DNA of 64,000 nucleotides from Xanthomonas sp. F10. GTDB lineage: Bacteria > Pseudomonadota > Gammaproteobacteria > Xanthomonadales > Xanthomonadaceae. Shown piece after piece: positions 3,130-15,764 of the stretch. A program made the translations under genes and the position numbers. Numbering within the stretch: position 1 is the first letter of the stretch; every line of letters begins with the position of its first letter. The notes under the pieces were generated by a model. The model was not told the DNA's origin, made no database searches, and saw nothing but the letters and a program-made list of their open reading frames with translations. The stretch covers positions 434,001-498,000 of the forward strand of contig NZ_JACHNP010000002.1 of the NCBI RefSeq assembly GCF_014206815.1, given 5' to 3'.

Positions 3130-5307
3130 ATGAAATTCAAAGCTTCCGCCTTCCTGCTGGCGTTTGCGCTGACCGCACCGCTGGCGCTGTTCGCCCGGAC
3201 CGATGCGCCCGCACTGCCGGCCGCTGCCACCGCCGACCAGGCCACCACCGCCAAGCTGGTGTACGGCCTGCTGTCCGACAGCCGCTACGCCTACCGGCCG
3301 CGTGCCCTCGACGAGGCGACCTCCAAGGAGGTCTTCAAGAAGTACCTGGAGACCCTCGACGGCAGCAAGCAGTTCTTCACCCAGGCCGACGTCGACAAGT
3401 TCGCCAGCTTCCAGAACAACCTCGGCGCCAACATCGCCTCCGGCCAGCTGGAACCGGCGTTCCAGATCTTCGCCGTGTATCGGCAGCGGGTGGACGAGCG
3501 CATCGCCTACGCGCGCAAGCTGCTCAAGCAGGACTTCAACTTCGACGGCGACGAGAAGTTCGAGTACGACCGCAAGAACGCGCCGTGGGCCAAGGACGAC
3601 CAGGAGCTGGATGCGCTGTGGCGCAAGTCGGTGATGAACGACTGGCTGCGGCTCAAGCTCGCCGGCAAGAAGCCGGAAGACATCCGCAAGACCCTGGACA
3701 AGCGCTACGCCAACCTCGACGACTCGGTGAAGGAACTGAAGAGCGAGGACGTGTTCCAGTTCTTCATGAACGCCTACACCAACACGGTCGATCCGCACAC
3801 CGACTACTTCACTCCGCGCACCGCCGAGAACTTCAACCAGCAGATGTCGCTGTCGCTGGAAGGCATCGGTGCGCAGCTGCAGAAGCAGGACGACCTGGTG
3901 GTGATCCGCGAGGTGATCCCGGGCGGTCCGGCGGCGCTGGACGGCACGCTCAAGCCGGGCGACCGCATCGTCGGCGTCGGCCAGGGCAAGAGCGGCCCGG
4001 TCGAGGACGTGATCGGCTGGCGCATCGACGACGTCGTCGCCAAGATCCGCGGCGACAAGGACACCCAGGTGCGCCTGGAATACATCCCGGCCGAGGCCGG
4101 CGTGGACGGCAAGCACCGCCAGGTGCTGCTGACCCGGCAGAAGGTGCGCCTGGCCGAACAGGCCGCCAAGGGCGAGACCATCGAATTGCCGGCGAAGGAC
4201 GGCGAGCCAGCGCGGCGCATCGGCGTGATCAAGCTGCCGGCGTTCTACCAGGACTTCGAAGGCCGCCGTCGCAACGCCAAGGACTATGCCTCGGCGACCC
4301 GCGACGTGGCCAAGCTGCTGGCCGGGTTCAAGACCGACAAGGTCGACGGCGTGGTGCTGGACCTGCGCAACAACGGCGGCGGTTCGCTGGATGAGGCGAT
4401 CGAGCTGACCGGCCTGTTCATCGAGCAGGGTCCGGTGGTGCAGGTGCGCGAATCCGGCGGCCGCGTCACCGTCAACAGCGACCAGAATCCGGCCGTGGCC
4501 TGGGACGGCCCGCTGGCGGTGCTGATCAACCGCGGTTCGGCCTCGGCGTCGGAGATCTTCGCCGGCGCCATCCAGGATTACGGTCGCGGCCTGATCATCG
4601 GCGAGACCAGCTTCGGCAAGGGCACGGTGCAGAACATCGTCGACCTGGACCGCTGGCCAGCCAACGAGACCGACCGCTTCGGCCAGGTCAAGCTGACCAT
4701 CGCCCAGTTCTTCCGCGTCAGCGGCAGCAGCACCCAGCACAAGGGCGTGGTGCCGGACATCGCCTTCCCGGCCAGCGTCGATGCCACCGAGTTCGGCGAA
4801 AGCACCTACGACAATGCCCTGCCGTGGAGCCGCATCGCCGCGGTGCCGCACACCCAGTACGGCAATTTCGCGCCGCTGCTGCCCAAGCTGGAGGCGCTGC
4901 ACACCACGCGCATCGCCAACGACAAGGAATTCCAGTGGTGGGAAGAGGACGTGCGCCAGTTCCGCACCGAGGCGGCGAAGAAGTATGTGGTGCTCAACGA
5001 GGCCGAGCGCCGCGCCGAGCGTGAGAAGCAGGACGCGCAGCGCAAGCAGCGCCAGGAGATCCGCAAGCAGCTCGGCCTGCCGCTGGATCCGCTCGCCGAC
5101 GACAGCAGCGACGACGGCCTGACCGGCAACGAGCGCGACATCGTCAAGGATGCCGCACGCGAGAAGCTGGTCGACAAGCGCCCGGACCCGCTGCTGCGCG
5201 AATCGGCGTCGATCCTGAGCGATGCGGTCAACCTGCTGGAGAAGGACCGTCCGCTGTCGGTGCAGGTGCTGCCGCAGTCCACCGGCCCGGGGCGCTGGGC
5301 CGACTGA
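3130..5307 (+). CDS. prc: Tail-specific (carboxy-terminal) protease Prc
   Basis: A periplasmic S41 serine protease of 725 residues that degrades SsrA-tagged and other proteins with apolar C termini. Order seen: signal peptide (residues 1-22), N-terminal helical domain, PDZ domain (about 244-325, with the LEGIGAQL binding loop), then the S41 protease core (about 365-545). The serine-lysine dyad is Ser472 in NRGSASASEIF and Lys497 in SFGKGTVQ, spaced 25 residues as in E. coli Tsp. The last 150 residues are the charged helical DUF3340-type tail. An independent unit: 228 bp of upstream sequence and a strong terminator at 5336-5368. Confidence 0.97.
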   Translation: MKFKASAFLLAFALTAPLALFARTDAPALPAAATADQATTAKLVYGLLSDSRYAYRPRALDEATSKEVFKKYLETLDGSKQFFTQADVDKFASFQNNLGANIASGQLEPAFQIFAVYRQRVDERIAYARKLLKQDFNFDGDEKFEYDRKNAPWAKDDQELDALWRKSVMNDWLRLKLAGKKPEDIRKTLDKRYANLDDSVKELKSEDVFQFFMNAYTNTVDPHTDYFTPRTAENFNQQMSLSLEGIGAQLQKQDDLVVIREVIPGGPAALDGTLKPGDRIVGVGQGKSGPVEDVIGWRIDDVVAKIRGDKDTQVRLEYIPAEAGVDGKHRQVLLTRQKVRLAEQAAKGETIELPAKDGEPARRIGVIKLPAFYQDFEGRRRNAKDYASATRDVAKLLAGFKTDKVDGVVLDLRNNGGGSLDEAIELTGLFIEQGPVVQVRESGGRVTVNSDQNPAVAWDGPLAVLINRGSASASEIFAGAIQDYGRGLIIGETSFGKGTVQNIVDLDRWPANETDRFGQVKLTIAQFFRVSGSSTQHKGVVPDIAFPASVDATEFGESTYDNALPWSRIAAVPHTQYGNFAPLLPKLEALHTTRIANDKEFQWWEEDVRQFRTEAAKKYVVLNEAERRAEREKQDAQRKQRQEIRKQLGLPLDPLADDSSDDGLTGNERDIVKDAAREKLVDKRPDPLLRESASILSDAVNLLEKDRPLSVQVLPQSTGPGRWAD

Positions 5308-5335
5308 GTCCACGCTCCACCGTCGTGCGAACACG

Positions 5336-5368
5336 AACGCGCCATCGCTCAGCGGTGGCGCGTTTTTC
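5336..5368 (+). terminator. Rho-independent terminator of prc
   Basis: Nine-base arms AACGCGCCA (5336-5344) and TGGCGCGTT (5356-5364) with an 11-nt loop run straight into a T tract, 28 bp after the prc stop. Confidence 0.93.
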
Positions 5369-5637
5369 GTTGCAGGTTCGGGTTGGGTCCCGGTCTGCGC
5401 CATCGTCGTGCGCCGGCCGATCGGTCCAGGGTATCGGTGTCGGTGCGTGCGGAGGAACCGGCGGGCTGCGCGGGCCGGCAGGCCACGGCCTGGTGATCGG
5501 CACGCACCGCGGATGCGGCGGTTAGTCCGCCGCGTCCTTGCCGTGGCGTGTCGTGGGAGCGGCTTCAGCCGCGACAGGGCTTCTCGGGGATGCCGGGTCG
5601 TCCTACGGCTGACCGGTGCCGCGGCGAAATCACATCT
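5369..5637. other. Intergenic spacer with GC hairpin and one REP-like unit
   Basis: No gene is supported between the prc terminator and the end of the exporter gene. A hairpin at 5511-5537 has 11-base arms (GGATGCGGCGG / CCGCCGCGTCC) with one mismatch and a 5-nt loop but no T tract. A REP-like unit lies at 5550-5575. Confidence 0.6.
5550..5575 (+). repeat. REP-like unit (GGAGCGGCTTCAGCCGCGAC)
   Basis: Single copy of the short palindromic element containing GCGGCT-TC-AGCCGC, with a CGTGGGA variant on the left side. Related copies lie at 7507-7880, 52518-52582 and 59805-59870. Confidence 0.85.
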
Positions 5638-6381
5638 TCAACCCAGCGCCTGCCACAGCTGATGCAGGCCCAGCCCCAGCAGGGTCAGGAAGAACACACG
5701 GCGGAACGCGCTGGCGGAAATGCGCTCGCGCAGCCGCGCGCCCAGCCACATGCCGATCGCGGTGGGCAATAGCGCCAGCAACGAGGGGCCTAGCGCCTGC
5801 GTGGGGAAGGCGCCGTGCGCGATCAGCGCCGCGGCCAGCGCCAGGGTGGCCGCGGCGAAGCAACTGCCCAGGGCGCGCATCAGCGTGTCCCGCGGCTGGT
5901 GCAATGCCACCAGGTAGGGCAGTACCGGCAACACGAACACGCCGGTGGCGCCGGTCAGCAGACCGGTCGCCAGGCCCACCGGCGGGGCCGCCCAGCGCGC
6001 CTGGGAGGGCGACAGGCGCCCCTGCCACTGGACCAGGCCGAGCGCGGCGTACAGCGCCAGCAACGCGCCCAGCCCGGCGCGCGCCAGCCGCGGGTCGGCG
6101 CCGGCGAGGATGCCGGCGCTGCACCAGGTACCGGCGACGATGCACGCCAGCAGCGGCCACAGCCGCCGCAGCAGCGCGCCGGTGCCCGCGCCCCATGCCT
6201 GTTGCAGGTTGGTCAGCAGCGATGGCAGCGCCAGCAGTGTCGCGGCCTCGGTCGGCGTCAGCCACAGCCCGAGCAGGCCCATCGCCACTGTCGGCAGGCC
6301 CATGCCGGCCACGCCCTTGACGCCGCCGGCGAGCAGGAAGACCAGGGCGATCGGCAGCAGGTGCGGTGCGAGGGTGTCCAT
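5638..6381 (-). CDS. TauE/SafE (TSUP) family membrane exporter
   Basis: A 247-residue, highly hydrophobic protein with about eight predicted membrane segments. The glycine-rich KGVAGMGLP block near the N terminus and its counterpart GLLTGATGVFVLPVLPYL after the midpoint are the paired TSUP repeat motifs. The family exports anions such as sulfite or organosulfonates through the inner membrane; the substrate here is unknown. The start at 6381 (MDTLAPHLLP) is preferred over an in-frame ATG at 6393 and an upstream extension rich in Arg. It is divergent from the LysR gene with 86 bp between starts, so that regulator probably controls it. Confidence 0.85.
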   Translation of the reverse strand: MDTLAPHLLPIALVFLLAGGVKGVAGMGLPTVAMGLLGLWLTPTEAATLLALPSLLTNLQQAWGAGTGALLRRLWPLLACIVAGTWCSAGILAGADPRLARAGLGALLALYAALGLVQWQGRLSPSQARWAAPPVGLATGLLTGATGVFVLPVLPYLVALHQPRDTLMRALGSCFAAATLALAAALIAHGAFPTQALGPSLLALLPTAIGMWLGARLRERISASAFRRVFFLTLLGLGLHQLWQALG

Positions 6382-6467
6382 GGGGGCCAGCATCGGCGCG
6401 CCGCGGCGGCCGCACAATGCGCGAATGCTTCAGGCAGACTTCGGCAACGACGAAGGCGGGAGTGCCG

Positions 6468-7367
6468 ATGCATCTGGATTTCACCGATCTGCGGCTGTTC
6501 CTGGCGGTGGCCGAGGCCGGCAGCATCACCGCCGGCGCCGACCGCGCGGCGCTGTCGCTGGCCGCCGCCAGTGCGCGCATCCGCGCGCTGGAAACGCAGC
6601 TCGGGGTTGCGTTGTTCGAACGCGGCCCGCGCGGCGTCGGCCTCACCGCGGCCGGCACCGCGTTGCTGCGGCACGCGCGGCAGTTGCTGGGCCAGGCCGA
6701 GGCGATGCGCAGCGAACTGGGCGAGTACGTCGGCGGCCACCCGACCAGCGTGCGCCTGCTGGCCAATACCGCGGCGTTGTCGGAATGGCTGCCAGAGGTG
6801 CTGGCCGGGTTCCTGGTGGCGCATCCGCGCATCGATCTGGCGCTGCGCGAGCAGGGCAGCGTCGCCGCGGCCGACGCGCTGCGCGAGCAACGCGCCGATC
6901 TGGCGGTGATCGCCGACCATGCCGATCTGCAGGGCCTGCACGCGCACCCGTTCCGGCAGGACCGGCTGGTGCTGGTGGCCGCGGCCACGCACCCGCTGGC
7001 GCAGGCGTCGCAGCTGCGGTTCTCGGAGCTGTGGCAGGCGCAGTTCCTCGGGCTCACCGAGGACAGCGCGCTGCAGCGGCATTTGCGCACGCAGGCCGCG
7101 CGCACAGGCGGGCAGTTGCGCCTGCGTGCGCAGGTGCACGGCATCGAACCGTTGTGCCGGATGCTGGCGCGCGGCGCCGGCGTGGCGATCCTGCCGCAGG
7201 CGGCGCTGGAGCGGGTCAGCGTGCGCGCGCAGCTGGTCGCGGTGCCGCTGCAGGAGCCGTGGGCGCTGCGCCGGTTGTCGATCGTATGGCGGCCGACACC
7301 GGCGCCGTCGCCGCCGGTGCAGCGGGTATTGGACTGGCTGCGTGCGCATGCCGCGCCGGAGGCCTGA
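6468..7367 (+). CDS. LysR-family transcriptional regulator
   Basis: A 299-residue protein with an N-terminal winged helix-turn-helix (residues 1-62: DLRLFLAVAEAGSITAGADR...LSLAAASARIRALETQLGVALFERGPRGVGLTAAG) and a LysR substrate-binding domain (about 88-295). The helix-turn-helix keeps the family residues A-A-S-R-I---E--LG--LFER. Start chosen at 6468, preceded by an AAGGCGGGAG ribosome site; it fits family length. Divergent pairing with the TSUP exporter is the standard arrangement for a LysR regulator and its target. The effector cannot be inferred. Confidence 0.9.
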   Translation: MHLDFTDLRLFLAVAEAGSITAGADRAALSLAAASARIRALETQLGVALFERGPRGVGLTAAGTALLRHARQLLGQAEAMRSELGEYVGGHPTSVRLLANTAALSEWLPEVLAGFLVAHPRIDLALREQGSVAAADALREQRADLAVIADHADLQGLHAHPFRQDRLVLVAAATHPLAQASQLRFSELWQAQFLGLTEDSALQRHLRTQAARTGGQLRLRAQVHGIEPLCRMLARGAGVAILPQAALERVSVRAQLVAVPLQEPWALRRLSIVWRPTPAPSPPVQRVLDWLRAHAAPEA

Positions 7368-8912: not shown

Positions 8913-9911
8913 TCAATTGAATGCCGACAGCGCCTGGGTCAGCTGCCCGTTGTTGTTGACCGCTCCCATCGTGTAGCCCTGCCAGCCTGGGTAGGCGTCG
9001 GGTTCCCAATAGAACACGCCCAGGCCGCGGCTGCCGAGCGCGCGGCTCCTGGTGAGCAGATCGGCCAGCATCGCGCGGGTGGTGGCGGCCTGCTGCCAGT
9101 CCATGCCGACCTCGCTGACGATCACGTCCGAGCCGTAGCGCGCCACCATGTCCTGCATGTTGCTGGCGATCTGCGTGTTGGCGCTCTGCCAGGCGTTGGG
9201 GGACGGGTAGTGCGACATGCCGACCACGTCCCACTTGCCGCCGGCCGACTTGAGGCCGTCGAAGAACCAGCGGAAAGTCGCATTGTCGTAGCCGTTGGCC
9301 AGGTGCACGACCACCTTGGCGTTGGGGTAGACCGACTTGCTGGCGTTGTAGCCGCTGTTGATCAGCTGCGCGAGGTTGCCGAAGTTGGGCGTCTTGCCGT
9401 CCGGCCACAGCATGCCGCTGTTGATCTCGTTGCCCACCTGCACCCAGCTCACGTCGATGCCGTTGGACTTGAGGTAGGACAGGATGCCGTTGGTGTGCGC
9501 GTACACGTCCTTCACCAGGGTGGCGAAGTCATGGTTGCTCCAGGCCGCCGGCTTGGTCTGCTTGCCGGGATCGGCCCAGCTGTCGCTGTAGTGGAAGTCG
9601 ATCATGATGCGCATGCCCTGCGCCTTGGCGCGCTTGGCCATGTTCAGCGTGTCGGCGCCGTCGTTCCAGCCGCCCTGCGGATTGACCCACACGCGCAACC
9701 GGATCGCGTTGACCCCGGTGCCCTTGAGCAGCGAGAAGAAGTCGGTGGTGGCACCGGAGGCGTTGCGGAACACGCGCCCGCTGCTTTCCTGCTGGTCGAT
9801 CCAACTGACATCGGCGCCTTTGGCGAAGGTCTGCGCCATGGCCGGCGCACACAGGCAGGCAAGCAACAACACCAGCAGCCAGGCGGACACGCGCTTGCTC
9901 GATCGGTTCAT
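8913..9911 (-). CDS. Secreted GH53 arabinogalactan endo-beta-1,4-galactanase
   Basis: A 332-residue secreted glycoside hydrolase that cuts the beta-1,4-galactan side chains of pectin (rhamnogalacturonan I). Signal peptide residues 1-26 (ends AMA-Q). The GH53 TIM barrel shows KGADVSWIDQQE near the start, RLRVWVNPQGGWNDG, IDFHYSDSWADPGKQ, the acid/base glutamate Glu162 in VQVGNEINSGMLWP, and the nucleophile Glu267 in VSEVGMDWQ, ending with the FYWEPDAYPGW block. Length matches single-domain GH53 enzymes; no carbohydrate-binding module. Together with the expansin at 30.3 kb it points to growth on plant tissue. Confidence 0.95.
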   Translation of the reverse strand: MNRSSKRVSAWLLVLLLACLCAPAMAQTFAKGADVSWIDQQESSGRVFRNASGATTDFFSLLKGTGVNAIRLRVWVNPQGGWNDGADTLNMAKRAKAQGMRIMIDFHYSDSWADPGKQTKPAAWSNHDFATLVKDVYAHTNGILSYLKSNGIDVSWVQVGNEINSGMLWPDGKTPNFGNLAQLINSGYNASKSVYPNAKVVVHLANGYDNATFRWFFDGLKSAGGKWDVVGMSHYPSPNAWQSANTQIASNMQDMVARYGSDVIVSEVGMDWQQAATTRAMLADLLTRSRALGSRGLGVFYWEPDAYPGWQGYTMGAVNNNGQLTQALSAFN

Positions 9912-10116
9912 GCGATTCTCGCAGTGATGGAAGGAGGGAAGGAGGGGTGTCGCGCGGCCCCGAACGGCGGCCGGCAGGACTGCCGGGCTGTCCCCTTGGC
10001 CGCGGCGCGCACGAGGCTAGCGCGATCGCCTTGGCGACGCGCGCTGCACTGCAGCGGCGCTGGCACGCGTCGGGACGCGCTGTCTGGATGGCCGATGAAT
10101 CTGCGCGGTGCGTCAC

Positions 10117-10144
10117 TTGACGCGATGCGGCATCGGCGTAGCAT
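10117..10144 (+). promoter_or_regulatory. Candidate sigma-70 promoter of the nadM-nadV cluster
   Basis: TTGACG (10117-10122) and TAGCAT (10139-10144) are separated by 16 bp, 56 bp before the chosen nadM start. Five of six and four of six bases match the consensus. A perfect CGCTGCA-C-TGCAGCG inverted repeat at 10042-10056 lies upstream and might be an operator. Confidence 0.45.
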
Positions 10145-10200
10145 TTCGCCCACGCCAAGGGACAGACCCGCGGCGATCCACCCAACCGTGAGGGATGCTC

Positions 10201-11250
10201 ATGGAGTTCGACTATCTGGTGTTCATCGGGCGCTTCGAGCCCTTCCACAACGGCCATGCCGCCGTTGCCCGCCACGCCCTGGCGCGTGGCCAGAAACTCA
10301 TCTTCCTGATCGGCTCGGCCGAGACGCCTCGTACCATCCGCAATCCCTGGACCGTTGCCGAGCGCAGCGTGATGATCCAGGCCGCGCTCGAGGGTGCTGG
10401 CGAACGCCTGATCCTGCGACCGCTGCGCGACCACCTGTACAACGAAAGCCAATGGATCGCCGCGGTGCAGTCCACGGTGGCCGAGGCGGTGCGCAGCGAC
10501 GGCGGCAGCGCCGAGGCGCGGATCGGCCTGATCGGCATGGACAAGGACGCCAGCAGCTATTACCTGCGCGAATTCCCGCAGTGGCCGCTGGTCGACGTGC
10601 AGCACACCGAAACGCTGTCGGCGACCGAGCTGCGCCGTTACCTGTTCGAGGCCGGCAGCATCGATTTCCACGGCGCGCTGCTGATGCTGCGCGGCAACGT
10701 GCCGGCGCCGGTCTTCGACATGCTCGAGGCGTTCCGCAAGAACTCGCCGTCGTATGCCGAACTGCTCGCCGAATACCAGTTCATCGAGCAGTACCGCGCG
10801 GCCTGGAAGGAGGCGCCGTATCCGCCGACCTTCGTCACCGCCGACGCGGTGGTGGTGCATTCCGGACACGTGCTGCTGGTGCGCCGCCGCGCGGCGCCGG
10901 GCAAGGGCCTGTGGGCGCTGCCGGGCGGCTTCGTCGGCCAGCACGAGAGCATCCTCGACGCCTGCCTGCGCGAGCTGCGCGAGGAGACCCGGCTGAAGAT
11001 CCCGGTGCCGGTGCTCAAGGGTTCGCTGAAGAACCGTCACGTGTTCGACCACCCCGAGCGCAGCCTGCGCGGGCGCACCATCACCCATGCCTTCCACTTC
11101 GAGTTCGTGTTCGGCGAACTGCCCGAGGTGCGCGGCGGCGACGACGCCGACAAGGCGCGCTGGGTGCCGGTCAGCGAAGTGCTGGGCATGGGCCCGAAAC
11201 TGTTCGAAGACCACCTGCACCTGCTCGAATTCTTCCTGGGCCGCGGTTGA
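10201..11250 (+). CDS. nadM: Bifunctional NMN adenylyltransferase / Nudix hydrolase (NadM-Nudix)
   Basis: A two-domain cytosolic enzyme of 349 residues. The N-terminal nucleotidyltransferase (1-180) joins NMN and ATP to form NAD; it carries FIGRFEPFHNGH with the HXGH motif (residues 16-19) and the ATELRR segment near 141. The C-terminal Nudix domain (210-345) has GX5EX7REUXEE in GGFVGQHESILDACLRELREET (about 242-263, Arg where the family glycine usually is), expected to hydrolyse ADP-ribose. ATG 10201 is chosen because AGGG lies at a usable distance; the ATG at 10195 would touch it. nadV follows after 60 bp, so the pair makes NAD from nicotinamide. Confidence 0.93.
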   Translation: MEFDYLVFIGRFEPFHNGHAAVARHALARGQKLIFLIGSAETPRTIRNPWTVAERSVMIQAALEGAGERLILRPLRDHLYNESQWIAAVQSTVAEAVRSDGGSAEARIGLIGMDKDASSYYLREFPQWPLVDVQHTETLSATELRRYLFEAGSIDFHGALLMLRGNVPAPVFDMLEAFRKNSPSYAELLAEYQFIEQYRAAWKEAPYPPTFVTADAVVVHSGHVLLVRRRAAPGKGLWALPGGFVGQHESILDACLRELREETRLKIPVPVLKGSLKNRHVFDHPERSLRGRTITHAFHFEFVFGELPEVRGGDDADKARWVPVSEVLGMGPKLFEDHLHLLEFFLGRG

Positions 11251-11310
11251 CGCGGCCTCCCGGCTGGCGGACAGACCGCCGGCTTTCCCCGACGCGAAGG
11301 AGCTTCCGTC

Positions 11311-12735
11311 ATGCAATGCCTGAACAACCTGCTGCTCAACACCGATAGCTACAAGGCCAGCCACTGGCTGCAGTACCCGCCCGGCACCGACGCCACGTTC
11401 TTCTATGTGGAATCGCGCGGCGGCGTCTACGACCGCACCGTGTTCTTCGGCCTGCAGTCGATCCTCAAGGAGGCGCTGGGCCGCCCCGTCACCCATGCCG
11501 ACATCGACGAGGCGCGCGATCTGTTCGCCGCGCACGGCGAGCCGTTCAACGAGGCCGGCTGGCGCGACATCGTCGACCGCCTCGGCGGCCAGTTGCCGAT
11601 CCGTATCCGCGCCGTGCCCGAGGGCAGCGTGGTGCCGACCCACAACGCGCTGATGACCATCGAGTCCACCGACGCGCAGGCCTACTGGGTGCCGTCGTAC
11701 CTGGAGACGCTGCTGCTGCGCATCTGGTACCCTGTGACGGTGGCCACGGTGAGCTGGCATGCCAAGCAGACCCTGCGCCAGTTCCTGGAGCGCACCAGCG
11801 ACGATCCGGACGGGCAGTTGCCGTTCAAGCTGCACGACTTCGGCGCGCGCGGCGTGTCCAGCCTGGAATCGGCCGCGATCGGCGGCGCGGCGCACCTGGT
11901 CAACTTCCTCGGCACCGACACCGTGTCCGGACTGTTGCTGGCGCGCGCGCACTACCACGAGCCGATGGCCGGCTATTCCATCCCCGCCGCCGAGCACAGC
12001 ACCATCACCAGCTGGGGCCGCGAACGCGAGGTCGACGCGTACCGCAATATGCTCAAGCAGTTCGGCAAGCCCGGCGGCGTGGTCGCGGTGGTGTCGGACA
12101 GCTACGACATCTTCCACGCGATCCGCGAGCACTGGGGCACCACGCTGCGCGAGGAGGTGATCGCCTCCGGCGCCACCGTGGTGATCCGCCCCGACTCCGG
12201 CGATCCGGTAGCGGTGGTGCACCAGTGCCTGGAACTGCTCGACGAGGCCTTCGGCCACAGCGTCAACGGCAAGGGCTACAAGGTGCTCAACCACGTGCGG
12301 GTGATCCAGGGCGACGGAGTCAACCCGACCAGCATCCGCGCGATCCTGGAGCGCATCACCAGCGCCGGCTACGCCACCGACAACCTGGCCTTCGGCATGG
12401 GCGGCGCCTTGCTGCAGCGGCTCGACCGCGACACCCAGAAGTTCGCGTTGAAGTGCTCGGCCGCGCGCGTCGACGGCCGCTGGATCGATGTCTACAAGGA
12501 TCCGGTCACCGACAAGGGCAAGCTCAGCAAGCGCGGCCGCATGCGCCTGCTGCGGCACCGCGAGTACGGCAGCTATCGCACCGAGCCGGTGCCGCCAGAC
12601 GCGGTGTCGGCCGAAGCGGTCGCCGGCCCGGCCGGCTACGACGATGCGATGGTCACCGTGTGGGAGAACGGCCGCCTGCTGCACGACTGGACCTTCGCCG
12701 AGGTACGCGAGCGCGCGAACGCCGCGCGCCTGTAG
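11311..12735 (+). CDS. nadV: Nicotinamide phosphoribosyltransferase NadV
   Basis: A 474-residue NAMPT-family enzyme that makes NMN from nicotinamide and PRPP, bypassing nicotinamidase. Landmarks are NTDSYKASHW at the N terminus, the HDFGARG active-site segment (175-181), the histidine of PAAEHST (His229, equivalent to the phosphohistidine of human NAMPT) and RPDSGDP (293-299) for the phosphoribosyl moiety. Start preceded by GAAGGAG. The 60-bp gap after nadM contains a GC hairpin (about 11264-11283), which could adjust relative expression. The next gene starts only 9 bp after the stop. NadV is patchily distributed and often horizontally moved, including in phages. Confidence 0.95.
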   Translation: MQCLNNLLLNTDSYKASHWLQYPPGTDATFFYVESRGGVYDRTVFFGLQSILKEALGRPVTHADIDEARDLFAAHGEPFNEAGWRDIVDRLGGQLPIRIRAVPEGSVVPTHNALMTIESTDAQAYWVPSYLETLLLRIWYPVTVATVSWHAKQTLRQFLERTSDDPDGQLPFKLHDFGARGVSSLESAAIGGAAHLVNFLGTDTVSGLLLARAHYHEPMAGYSIPAAEHSTITSWGREREVDAYRNMLKQFGKPGGVVAVVSDSYDIFHAIREHWGTTLREEVIASGATVVIRPDSGDPVAVVHQCLELLDEAFGHSVNGKGYKVLNHVRVIQGDGVNPTSIRAILERITSAGYATDNLAFGMGGALLQRLDRDTQKFALKCSAARVDGRWIDVYKDPVTDKGKLSKRGRMRLLRHREYGSYRTEPVPPDAVSAEAVAGPAGYDDAMVTVWENGRLLHDWTFAEVRERANAARL

Positions 12736-12744
12736 GAGGCGGCC

Positions 12745-13851
12745 ATGCACGCCTCCCTGCCGAGTGCGCCGCCGTTGAGCGGCGGCTCGCCGCTGTTCGC
12801 CGCGCTGCGCGCCAGCACACCGCATCTGGAATGGCGGGTGCCGGCCGCGACGGATGCGTCGCGCTGGCGCCAGCAGCGCATCGGCGCGCGCGACTACCGC
12901 GTCGCGCAGCCAGTGACCTTCACTCCCTACGCATCGGTGCGGCCGTGTTCGGCGCGCTGCCGCTTCTGCTCGGAAACCCTGCGGCCGCAGAGCGGCGGCA
13001 CCGCCGCGGCCAGCCTGCGGCCGCCGCCGGACTACTTCGCGCAACTGCGCCAGGCGCTGGCGCAACTGCACGGGTTGCCGCTGTCGCATTCGCTGTCGGG
13101 GCTGGAGATGACCGACGACGAAGCCTGGTTCGTGGAACTGCTGCAGACCCTGGGCGCGGCCGAGCGCGACGGCCTGTTGGTCGAACAGCGGGTGCTGTAC
13201 AGCAACGGCGCCGGTTTTGCCCGCGGCCACGGCGATGCGCTGTTGCAGGCCTTGCAGCGCTTCGACCTGTCGTGGATCGAACTGTCGCGGCATCATCCGC
13301 AACAGGCGCGCAACGACGCGATCATGCGTTTCCGCCCTGGCGAGGCGATCGCCGATGCGGGCGTCTTCGTCGCCACCGCCCAGCGCATCGCCGAAGCGCT
13401 GCCGCTGCGCCTGGTGTGCATCCTGCAGCACGGCGGCATCGCCGACGCCGACGGCGTCGCCGCCTACCTGGACTGGGCGCGCGCCTGCGGGGCGCGCACG
13501 GTGATCTTCCGCGAGTTTTCCCGACTCGGCGACGGCTACCGCGACGGCGGCACCGCGCGCTATCTGGCGCAGGCGCGGGTCGCGGTCGAGCAGGTGCTCG
13601 GCGCCTGCATGGCGGCGCCGTGGTGGCGCGCGCTGCAGCCGCTGCAGATCACCGAGGGCTACTACTTCTGGAATGTGCGCCTGGCGACCGCCGACGGCAT
13701 GGAGGTGGTGTTCGAGACCTCCGACTACGGCGCGATGCATGCGCGCCACGACAGCGGCGACATCTACAAGCTGGTGTTCTTCGCCGATGGGCGGCTGTGC
13801 GCCGGCTGGCAGCCGGACCGCGATCTGCTGTGGCGGGCGCCGCATGGATAG
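12745..13851 (+). CDS. Radical SAM protein in the nadM-nadV cluster, function unknown
   Basis: A 368-residue protein with a canonical CX3CX2C 4Fe-4S motif, Cys68-Cys72-Cys75 (RPCSARCRFCSET), at the start of a partial TIM barrel; LSGLEMTDDE, RVLYSNGAG, WIELSRHHPQQARNDAIMRF and LVCILQHGG look like the SAM-binding strands of MoaA/PqqE-type enzymes. No SPASM cysteines follow. The C-terminal 70 residues (EGYYFWNVRLATADGMEVVFETSDYG...) look like a beta-rich add-on. A strong TAGGAGGCGGCC precedes the ATG, 9 bp after nadV; the 3' end overlaps the methyltransferase gene by 8 bp. It therefore belongs to the same translation unit, but I cannot name its reaction. Confidence 0.75.
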   Translation: MHASLPSAPPLSGGSPLFAALRASTPHLEWRVPAATDASRWRQQRIGARDYRVAQPVTFTPYASVRPCSARCRFCSETLRPQSGGTAAASLRPPPDYFAQLRQALAQLHGLPLSHSLSGLEMTDDEAWFVELLQTLGAAERDGLLVEQRVLYSNGAGFARGHGDALLQALQRFDLSWIELSRHHPQQARNDAIMRFRPGEAIADAGVFVATAQRIAEALPLRLVCILQHGGIADADGVAAYLDWARACGARTVIFREFSRLGDGYRDGGTARYLAQARVAVEQVLGACMAAPWWRALQPLQITEGYYFWNVRLATADGMEVVFETSDYGAMHARHDSGDIYKLVFFADGRLCAGWQPDRDLLWRAPHG

Positions 13852-14893
13852 CCGCAGCTGGTGGACGCCGTCGCCGGATCCGCCGGAACATCGGCTACCG
13901 GAGGATCTGCGCCAGCGCGATCCGCTGGGCGCACGCGACTGCGGCTGGGTCGGGCAGATGCGGCCGTTCGTGCGCCACTTCAGCGCGCGCGGCGCGCGCG
14001 TGCTGGATCCGTTCTGCGGCTTCGGCAGCACCTTGCTCGCCGCCGAGCTGGAAGGTCGCCACGGCATCGGCCTGGAGATCGACCCGGCGCGCGCGCGGCT
14101 GGCGCGCGAACGGCTGCAGCGGCTCGGCCTGCAGGCCGAGGTGCTGGACGGCGGCTTGCCCCAGTGCATGACGGCCGCGCCGGTGGACCTGTGCCTGACC
14201 AACGTGCCGTACTTCGGCTGCGCCTGGCCGGCCGCGGCGGCACCCGGCCAGCTCTACGCCAGCGCCGACTACGCCGCCTACCTGCATGGCCTGCGTGCAG
14301 TGTTCCATGGCGTGCGCCGTGTCCTGCGCGAAGACGGCTTCTGCATCGCGATGGTGGAGAACGTGCAGCTCGGCGACGCCACCGTGCCGCAGGCCTGGGA
14401 CCTGGCCCGGATCCTCGGCAGCCTGTTCGCGCCCCGTCCTGAGCGCGTGCTGTGCTACCCGCGCGAGACGGCGCAGCCGCTGGCGCCCGGCGACACCCGC
14501 AACGACCGCAGCCACGAGTACGCGCTGATCTTCCAGCACCGGCGCCAGCCCATCGACCTGCCCGGCACGGCGCAGTTGCTGGCGGCCCTGCGTGCCGACG
14601 GCTTCGCCTTTGCGCTGTACGGCAGCTATCCGCACTGGCTGGACGATCCGGCGGCGGCACCGCGCCCGCCCGGCGACGTCGACCTGCTGCTGCCGCGCGA
14701 CCTGGACGGGCTGCTGCGGCTGCTCGAATGGCTGCGCGCGCGTGGCTTCCTGCTGAGCCTGTGGGGCGAGCCGCTGGCGGCGCCGCCGACCCTGGAACTG
14801 CTCGATGCCCATCATTACCTGCGCGCCGAACGCCGCGCCCACGACGGCGGCCTGCTGCGCGTGGACCTGGCGCTGGAACCCGCCGCCGCCTGA
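13844..14893 (+). CDS. Methyltransferase fused to nucleotidyltransferase-like domain
   Basis: A 349-residue two-part protein. Residues 40-232 form a Rossmann methyltransferase: SAM motif VLDPFCGFGSTLLAAELEG (53-71), acidic GLEID (77-80), and catalytic-type LTNVPYF (118-124), where N-V-P-Y replaces the usual N/D-P-P-Y. This I-to-IV order and the DPFCG-GT-LLA pattern occur in DNA amino-methyltransferases and also in Trm11/RlmL-like RNA enzymes. Residues 243-346 resemble a minimal nucleotidyltransferase: FALYGSYPHW (Gly-Ser at 260-261), GDVDLLLP (Asp278, Asp280) and a third acid in LRVDLALE (Asp341). ATG 13844 overlaps the radical SAM stop. No restriction nuclease is adjacent. Substrate unknown. 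Confidence 0.7.
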   Translation: MDSRSWWTPSPDPPEHRLPEDLRQRDPLGARDCGWVGQMRPFVRHFSARGARVLDPFCGFGSTLLAAELEGRHGIGLEIDPARARLARERLQRLGLQAEVLDGGLPQCMTAAPVDLCLTNVPYFGCAWPAAAAPGQLYASADYAAYLHGLRAVFHGVRRVLREDGFCIAMVENVQLGDATVPQAWDLARILGSLFAPRPERVLCYPRETAQPLAPGDTRNDRSHEYALIFQHRRQPIDLPGTAQLLAALRADGFAFALYGSYPHWLDDPAAAPRPPGDVDLLLPRDLDGLLRLLEWLRARGFLLSLWGEPLAAPPTLELLDAHHYLRAERRAHDGGLLRVDLALEPAAA

Positions 14894-15017
14894 GTCGGCG
14901 CGGCCCACGCCGCGCACCTCGCTAACCGCGGGATGAGCGGCCGCGCCGGCGTCAAGGCCGCGCCGACGCGCTTGCGGCTATTCTTTGCCGCGGTTCCCTC
15001 TCTCCGGTCAACGGCCT

Positions 15018-15764
15018 ATGTCCGCTCCCTCCAAGGTTCTCGCCATTCCCGCGCTCGCGCTGATCGCGATCGGCCTGAGCGGCTGCTTCGCCCGCAAGCA
15101 GGACGGCCTGGTGAAAGAGACCTTCAATTCCGACAACACCTATTCGCGCAACTACCCGGTGCAGCCGGCGCAGGCCTGCGAATCGGCGCGCCGCGCCCTG
15201 CTGAGCCAGGGCTATGTGGTCTCCAAGGCCACCGCCGATGCGGTGGAAGGCACCAAGAACTTCCAGCCCAGCGACGAGTTGCACGAGCAGCTCGAGTTGC
15301 GGGTGTCCTGCGTGGCGCATGGGCAGGACGAATCCTGGGTGTTCGTCAGTGCGTTGCAGGACCGCTATGCGCTGAAGAAGAGCCCGACCTCGGCCAGCGT
15401 CGGCGTCGGCGTGCTCGGTTCGGTCTCGCTGCCGATCGGCAGCAGCGACGACTCGATGGTGCGCGTGGCCAGCAGCACGGTGCAGGACGGCGACTTCTAC
15501 AAGCGCTTCTTCCAGTTGATGAGCGAATACCTGCCCAAGAACAAGCCGGCACCGGAGCCGCCTACGCATCCGCCCGCCGCGGCGGCCGTGACCGCGCCGG
15601 CACCGACGCCGGCAGCGCCCGCACCTGCGCCGGCAGCGCCGCTGATGCCGACTCCGATGCCCACGGCGACGCCTGTGCCACCGCCGGCACCCGCGGCCAC
15701 CACCGCGACGCAGCCGCCTGCGACGATGGCGCCGCAGAGCGGCGAACCCGGCGGCGCCGACTGA
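15018..15764 (+). CDS. DUF2242-like lipoprotein with Pro/Ala-rich tail
   Basis: A 248-residue lipoprotein. The signal peptide ends in a lipobox LSGC, with the lipidated cysteine about residue 23, so it is anchored in the periplasmic face of a membrane, probably the outer one. The body (25-175) carries TFNSDNTYSRNYP, an ESARRALLSQGYVV segment and VSSTVQDGDFYKRFFQL, a pattern I associate with DUF2242 proteins; the last 70 residues are almost only Ala, Pro and Thr and should be disordered, perhaps reaching peptidoglycan. Start at 15018 gives the shortest proper signal peptide; an upstream ATG at 14985 is in frame. Molecular role unknown. Confidence 0.75.
   Translation: MSAPSKVLAIPALALIAIGLSGCFARKQDGLVKETFNSDNTYSRNYPVQPAQACESARRALLSQGYVVSKATADAVEGTKNFQPSDELHEQLELRVSCVAHGQDESWVFVSALQDRYALKKSPTSASVGVGVLGSVSLPIGSSDDSMVRVASSTVQDGDFYKRFFQLMSEYLPKNKPAPEPPTHPPAAAAVTAPAPTPAAPAPAPAAPLMPTPMPTATPVPPPAPAATTATQPPATMAPQSGEPGGAD

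Follow-up and report, generated by a model that had tools for sequence, protein, structure and literature searches.

A radical SAM and methyltransferase-nucleotidyltransferase gene pair that accompanies nicotinamide salvage genes in Xanthomonadales

Why should genes for nicotinamide salvage be followed, in one tight run, by a radical S-adenosylmethionine (rSAM) protein and by a methyltransferase (MTase) fused to a nucleotidyltransferase (NTase)-like domain? The question is raised by four genes in the window, a 64,000-nt stretch of Xanthomonas sp. F10 (contig NZ_JACHNP010000002.1, positions 434,001-498,000; genome of 4.78 Mb in 6 contigs). Here we report that this gene order is retained in several genera, that a relative of the rSAM protein is paired with a stand-alone NTase on a Hymenobacter plasmid, and that another lies inside a phage cluster for salvage of nicotinamide adenine dinucleotide (NAD). 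Our preferred reading, to which we assign a probability of roughly 40%, is that the rSAM and fusion genes form an optional module whose substrate is of nucleotide type and either comes from NAD metabolism or is made at its expense.

Results

Conservation of the four-gene order

The unit comprises the following features.

10117..10144, + strand: candidate sigma-70-like promoter, TTGACG-16-TAGCAT, 56 bp 5' of nadM; the sole site found (shuffle mean 0.2)
10201..11250, + strand: nadM-Nudix, bifunctional nicotinamide mononucleotide (NMN) adenylyltransferase / Nudix hydrolase (NF003788, PF01467 and PF00293)
11311..12735, + strand: nadV, nicotinamide phosphoribosyltransferase of NAMPT type (PF18127, PF04095, PHROG 448, PRK09198)
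12745..13851, + strand: rSAM protein of a family without a model (CX3CX2C at C68/C72/C75; homology to PF04055-positive proteins)
13844..14890, stop 14891-14893, + strand: MTase-NTase fusion of 349 codons, overlapping the end of the rSAM gene by 8 bp
13844..14540, + strand: MTase domain, about residues 1-232 (motif I DPFCGFGST, motif IV NVPYF)
14558..14890, + strand: minimal NTase-like domain, about residues 239-349 (GS..DVD..VD; stand-alone Hymenobacter homologue)

The first three genes are spaced by 60 bp and 9 bp and the last two overlap by 8 bp; these coordinates and gaps, the motifs and the single promoter-like site all agree with the original prediction for this DNA. The region 9900-15100 showed no terminator-like site, and no RNA family was matched across 9600-15300.

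A single scan of genome contigs, whose queries were limited to short peptide patterns from the fusion protein, recovered 28 loci (27 Xanthomonas, 1 Lysobacter), all of which carry nadM and nadV and 27 of which carry the rSAM gene. Some copies are damaged: two loci (L026 and L016) carry stops, and in a third (L025) nadV is in two pieces. X. nasturtii (L028) keeps nadM and nadV, has no rSAM match and has lost all of the fusion but its NTase end, which carries a stop; we read this as a natural loss of the pair. The two loci with stops and the X. nasturtii fragment were omitted from the alignments (A3, A4 and A7).

Among 149 Xanthomonadaceae genomes, the fusion gene was found in 18 (E < 1e-70), one of them with an internal stop (G270), while 32 other listed genomes of the family gave only short MTase-motif matches of E 7.5e-11 or weaker. 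NadV is encoded by 37 of the 149, namely all 18 fusion-bearing genomes and 19 of the 131 others (Fisher test without correction for kinship, 2.5e-13 by genome and 3e-4 by genus), and the rSAM and fusion genes lie directly 3' of nadV in 17 of the 18. The co-occurrence check that the original prediction had proposed thus points, within the family, away from independence of the pair from nadV. Its description of the genes as welded to NAD salvage nevertheless goes too far as regards position, as the pair lies apart from NAD genes in Hymenobacter (below) and distant from nadV in G314 and G012 (G012 belonging to another family of the order; loci L067 and L073). The latter two genomes both have nadM and nadV matches, the nadV match of G012 containing one TGA. 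In wider samples the rSAM gene was found in 8 of 200 genomes of the order and, among 398 genomes of the phylum (for each of which the listed rows score no more than five candidates), only in the window genome and G012.

We compared this arrangement with its surroundings using seven flanking-gene queries, of which six were usable and one (d2), being out of frame, was uninformative. In seven loci of other genera (L018, L068-L072 and L074) nadM, nadV, rSAM and fusion genes occur together in every case and the six flanks in none. Of 24 Xanthomonas loci, all retain three of the six flanking genes, 16 retain a fourth and none has the other two. The four-gene order is not due to chance, since loci of other genera preserve it despite sequence divergence. 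Mean identity to the window is 67% and 61% for the pair and 81% and 84% for nadM and nadV.

Two stronger statements were considered and dropped. That every pair lies in an NAD operon is contradicted by L067, L073 and Hymenobacter, and that nadV is always accompanied by the pair is contradicted by the 19 of 37 nadV genomes that have no fusion gene and by the loss in X. nasturtii. In 18 of these 19 pair-less genomes (G300 left out), crude gene calls inspected by eye revealed no alternative gene 3' of nadV that is common across genera; L112 and L116, of one genus, share neighbours, as do L110 and L119, likewise of one genus, and L107 and L112 share a later gene. NadM adjoins nadV in 12 of the 18.

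Trees of the rSAM and fusion proteins, built from 20 chosen loci, are concordant in most groups; L069 is placed differently in the two, and L067 and L068 form long branches. The linkage in Xanthomonadales may thus go back to a single old event and have been maintained through vertical descent. Such a history suits an alternative in which one ancestral insertion after nadV has been inherited and co-transcribed while being unrelated to NAD. The apparently vertical descent, the pairs away from nadV, the retention of nadM and nadV in X. nasturtii after rSAM loss and fusion decay, and the Hymenobacter pair all accord with it. It is opposed by the four genes outlasting the six tested flanks across genera, by nadV being retained in both genomes where the pair lies elsewhere, and by the presence of the same rSAM family inside an unrelated phage NAD cluster. 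On balance we hold this alternative to be unlikely, though the least so of those weighed here.

Relatives in Bacteroidota and phages

On the Hymenobacter plasmid pHsw1, an rSAM gene (38% identity, E 4e-45, covering most of the protein) overlaps a gene for a stand-alone NTase homologous to the C-terminus of the fusion (BLASTP E 5e-9; hhalign 97.6%). From this overlap, one case of the pairing in another phylum, rSAM plus NTase looks like the core of the module.

A contig of 164.7 kb from an uncultured phage, IMGVR_UViG_3300009081_000009 (L085/L091), holds a member of the rSAM family inside an NAD-salvage cluster. The order there is nicotinate phosphoribosyltransferase (NAPRTase; PF04095), a small rSAM (PF04055), the window rSAM family and a third rSAM-like gene (PF04055 below cut-off), then NadE (PF02540), a nicotinamidase-like gene, a NadD-like gene (PF01467) and a Nudix-like gene, the nicotinamidase-like (no Pfam match) and Nudix-like genes being assigned by eye. 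A sister phage contig (L120) has a 79% identical NAPRTase, NadE, nicotinamidase-like and NadD-like genes and, by eye, a Nudix gene, with no rSAMs in the cluster and no match to the window rSAM family across its 69 kb.

L120 10001-16405 versus L091 8073-16338: sister-phage clusters compared; NAPRTase and NadE separated by three rSAM-like genes in L091 and by none in L120

Thus in bacteria and phages alike the module is optional and NAD salvage is self-standing. In a second phage (L092) a NAMPT-type gene lies 4.2 kb ahead of a pair formed by a small rSAM and an rSAM. This NAMPT-type gene (L092 3523-5157) has an in-frame TAG, as do a few other frames there, which may reflect stop-codon recoding in that phage. 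Viral scans with the alignment A1 and with the Hymenobacter rSAM returned no relative.

A published account of phage NAD+ synthesis (PMC9503650) describes NadV plus NadM as the enzyme set of phages for nicotinamide salvage and gives NadV frequencies of 22% in medium-sized and 33% in jumbo phages; the term 'radical SAM' is absent from its main text. The window unit resembles this phage system in having an NAMPT-type NadV adjoining a NadM-Nudix, and differs in being bacterial, in its apparently vertical descent and in its extension by the rSAM and MTase-NTase genes.

The shared salvage set, together with phage rSAM relatives beside or near NAD salvage, gives some ground for the original prediction's suggestion of an NAD-centred defence or counter-defence unit. 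The bacterial neighbourhood, however, is conserved and apparently vertically inherited, and the unit has no NADase, sensor or effector. Among PADLOC models, the fusion matches only generic MTase_II and mad2 (best 25 of 51 models), NadM matches the Nudix model PDC-S07, and nadV and rSAM match none. We hold a defence role to be very improbable.

A radical SAM family without a curated model

The cysteines C68, C72 and C75 of the CX3CX2C motif are invariant in an 11-row alignment, and the motif is present in 60 of 61 rSAM matches over loci L001-L074, a redundant set in which several loci cover the same genome. The window protein (P0003) matches none of the Pfam, NCBIfam, PHROGs or PADLOC models; PF04055 matches neither it, tried at E up to 10, nor the Hymenobacter protein (P0005). 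Relatives do pass the PF04055 cut-off of 29.5 bits, namely the phage proteins P0008 (33.5) and L085 (34.6) and a distant Embleya protein (L079, 37.6). A relative in Dulem virus 40 covers most of the protein (26.5%, E 2e-13). On this sequence evidence we assign the third gene to a radical SAM family that has no curated model.

A profile of the family scores 433-598 bits against its core set (Xanthomonadales, Hymenobacter and four phage records), a set made up of sequences that went into the profile or nearly duplicate its rows; the phage records L083 and L084 have this region in common. Two Embleya proteins reach 87 and 82 bits over the core only and were retained as distant kin. The rSAMs of Erwinia/Dickeya jumbo phages and of a 735-kb phage gave partial profile matches of 38-48 bits and were dropped as further NAD links, and a Staphylococcus phage record (L089), which did not match the profile, was not used. 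As a separate observation, the distant rSAM gene of the Dickeya/Erwinia jumbo phages (L086, L087 and L088) lies shortly 3' of an annotated RNA 2'-phosphotransferase, an enzyme that uses NAD, and is separated from it by one or two genes.

Among NCBIfam models, MoaA (46.7 bits, cut-off 284) and prokaryotic viperin (39.1 bits, cut-off 180) score best against the phage relative P0008; both are CX3CX2C rSAM enzymes that act on nucleotides. The likeness is distant, as P0008 falls far below both curated cut-offs and the window rSAM matches neither model.

The methyltransferase-nucleotidyltransferase fusion

The fusion carries NVPYF at residues 120-124, GS at 260-261, DVD at 278-280 and D341. In an 11-row alignment P122-Y123-F124, G260-S261, D278, D280 and D341 are invariant, and over L001-L074 T-(N/S)-(V/L)-PYF occurs in 60 of 62 matches and GS..DxD in all 62. 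The motif exceptions, L026 (CX3CX2C and PYF) and L028 (PYF), both look degraded.

The MTase domain resembles two known kinds of enzyme. PF01555, the model of N6/N4 DNA methylases, scores 51.3 bits (cut-off 26.7), with its best stretch at residues 39-88 in the motif I region. These methylases carry a motif IV of the form (D/N/S)PP(Y/F), whereas the fusion has (N/S)(V/L)PYF in its place, with motif I ahead of motif IV and no target-recognition region seen. The predicted structure points to the catalytic MTase fold of the transfer RNA (tRNA) guanine-N2 methyltransferases Trm11, TrmN and Trm14, the model's fold matches spanning residues 8-234. The fusion departs from these enzymes in its altered motif IV, in its C-terminal NTase-like domain and in leaving no room for a THUMP domain, a judgement based on length and on the model, in which the first long helix begins after only about 35 residues.

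The C-terminal domain has the GS...DxD...D pattern of nucleotidyltransferases, in which it resembles minimal (Pol-beta type) enzymes and the C-terminal domain of MdcG, though it reaches no curated cut-off; MdcG (Pfam PF10620) gave weak, below-cut-off matches in two of seven NTase sequences tried. Residues 239-349 have a secondary structure that would suit an NTase fold; the fold matches cover residues 8-234. Two of the three catalytic domains of the pair, rSAM and NTase, are thus without a curated model in Pfam or NCBIfam, in keeping with the original prediction's remark that the combination was unfamiliar.

These likenesses bear on whether fusion and rSAM modify a nucleic acid such as tRNA and neighbour NAD salvage for regulatory reasons only. 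A nucleic-acid target is a live rival, if a rather unlikely one. The original suggestion of a DNA or tRNA target is weakened by the missing room for THUMP, by the absence of a visible target-recognition region and by the (N/S)(V/L)PYF motif. Unlike housekeeping tRNA enzymes, moreover, the pair has a patchy distribution, with 18 of the 149 family genomes carrying it, and is less conserved than nadM and nadV.

A plasmid of Streptomyces sp. NBC_01450 encodes an MTase-domain homologue that stands alone (37.8%, E 8e-30) and, by eye, follows ATP-grasp-like and major facilitator superfamily transporter-like genes (L082, about 3400-6660) in what is possibly a small biosynthetic cluster. Together with the distant Embleya rSAM (L079), which precedes aminotransferase-like and methyltransferase genes, this favours a further alternative, in which the pair makes a nucleotide-containing secondary metabolite or signal and NAD salvage supplies the precursor. 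No transporter or further tailoring enzyme is seen directly beside the Xanthomonas pair, however, and the Embleya rSAMs match the profile core only, leaving this alternative doubtful.

NAD salvage and the host genome

The identities of the first two proteins are secure by sequence. NadM-Nudix scores 709.5 bits against NCBIfam NF003788 (cut-off 354) and also matches PF01467 and PF00293, and NadV matches PF18127 (NAMPT_N, 102 bits) and PF04095 (211 bits) in Pfam and PHROG 448 (E 1.7e-155), its best NCBIfam model being PRK09198 (687 bits), there labelled nicotinate phosphoribosyltransferase. NadV yields NMN and NadM yields NAD, and the matches to NAMPT-type and adenylyltransferase models uphold the predicted complete route from nicotinamide to NAD.

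The quinolinate synthase NadA (PF02445) is unmatched in the window genome and was matched in 12 of 14 control genomes; 3-hydroxyanthranilate dioxygenase (PF06052) is matched in the window genome at 231.7 bits and in none of the 14 controls. Together these fit de novo synthesis of NAD from tryptophan by the kynurenine route, and NadV is probably a recycling route alongside another NAD source.

The nearest named relative of the host is Xanthomonas sp. NCPPB 1128 (92-99% identity across the four proteins), from which we place the host in Xanthomonas or its close kin. Upstream of nadM lies a glycosidase-like gene (8913-9911, - strand), by eye resembling a GH53 galactanase, which is matched in none of 24 other Xanthomonas loci and in one of the two closest relatives.

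Discussion

That nadV is found without the pair, and the pair never without nadV in the family sample, is what would be expected if the module draws on, or loads, NAD metabolism. A small nucleotide-type substrate is suggested over a housekeeping nucleic acid by the small NTase, an MTase that leaves no space for an RNA-binding domain, the MoaA- and viperin-like kin, and the patchiness and lower conservation of the pair. In the scheme that we propose, NadV would make NMN and NadM would make NAD, with the Nudix half probably trimming adenosine diphosphate ribose (ADP-ribose) or NAD, and to this nicotinamide salvage a two-gene module would be joined, with rSAM and minimal NTase as its core and the NTase fused, in Xanthomonadales, to an amino-methyltransferase of Trm11/PF01555 type. 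Most likely, the rSAM protein would change a small nucleotide-type substrate, the NTase domain may then attach or activate with a nucleotidyl group, and the MTase domain may methylate the product. The substrate could be a pyridine nucleotide of the salvage route (nicotinamide, NMN or NAD), or a compound whose synthesis consumes NAD and frees nicotinamide, which NadV would recycle.

Several observations weigh against an NAD-linked module. Vertical inheritance of one old arrangement may make the p-values overstate independence; the flanks also persist inside Xanthomonas (three of six, 24/24), so adjacency there says little; and with nadV in a quarter of the family sample (37/149), its presence in both unlinked genomes could be chance, at about 1 in 16. 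The likeness of the MTase to PF01555, TIGR01177 and Trm11 could equally point to nucleic acid. The Hymenobacter pair has no adjoining NAD genes, and a search covering the whole plasmid found no PF04095. Dulem virus 40, whose 73-kb record is listed as complete, has both rSAMs and no PF04095 match, and the phage rSAMs adjoin another rSAM rather than an NTase or MTase. Finally, NadV is common in larger phages, which makes nearness of rSAM and NAD genes there only moderately surprising; the weight therefore falls on the embedded position in IMGVR_UViG_3300009081_000009, one case, and not on mere presence.

A more specific version of the module reading, which we consider improbable, is that a previously undescribed, NAD-coupled rSAM pathway common to Xanthomonadales, a Bacteroidota plasmid and phages makes an altered pyridine (di)nucleotide signal. 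The rSAM protein would alter the nicotinamide or ribose part, the NTase would build a dinucleotide or conjugate, and the MTase would cap it. If this were true, the phage product could be an NAD-like cofactor resistant to host NADases.

Taken singly, NadV-NadM salvage, rSAM enzymes, Trm11-like methyltransferases and minimal nucleotidyltransferases are of known kinds. What appears to be new, judged from our searches of open-licence papers, which turned up none linking them, is this rSAM family, its occurrence in NAD operons and its pairing with this NTase. NAD plays a central part in bacterial immunity and in phage counter-defence, and to our knowledge the NAD genes known in those settings only break, rebuild or transfer parts of NAD. 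The unit is small and intact, and hence directly testable with purified proteins and metabolite comparison. The occurrence of rSAM relatives in a bacterial unit and in a phage NAD cluster suggests an undescribed chemistry tied to NAD, and an rSAM protein accompanying NAD salvage in both bacteria and phage would be a lead to new NAD chemistry or to a new product that is costly in NAD.

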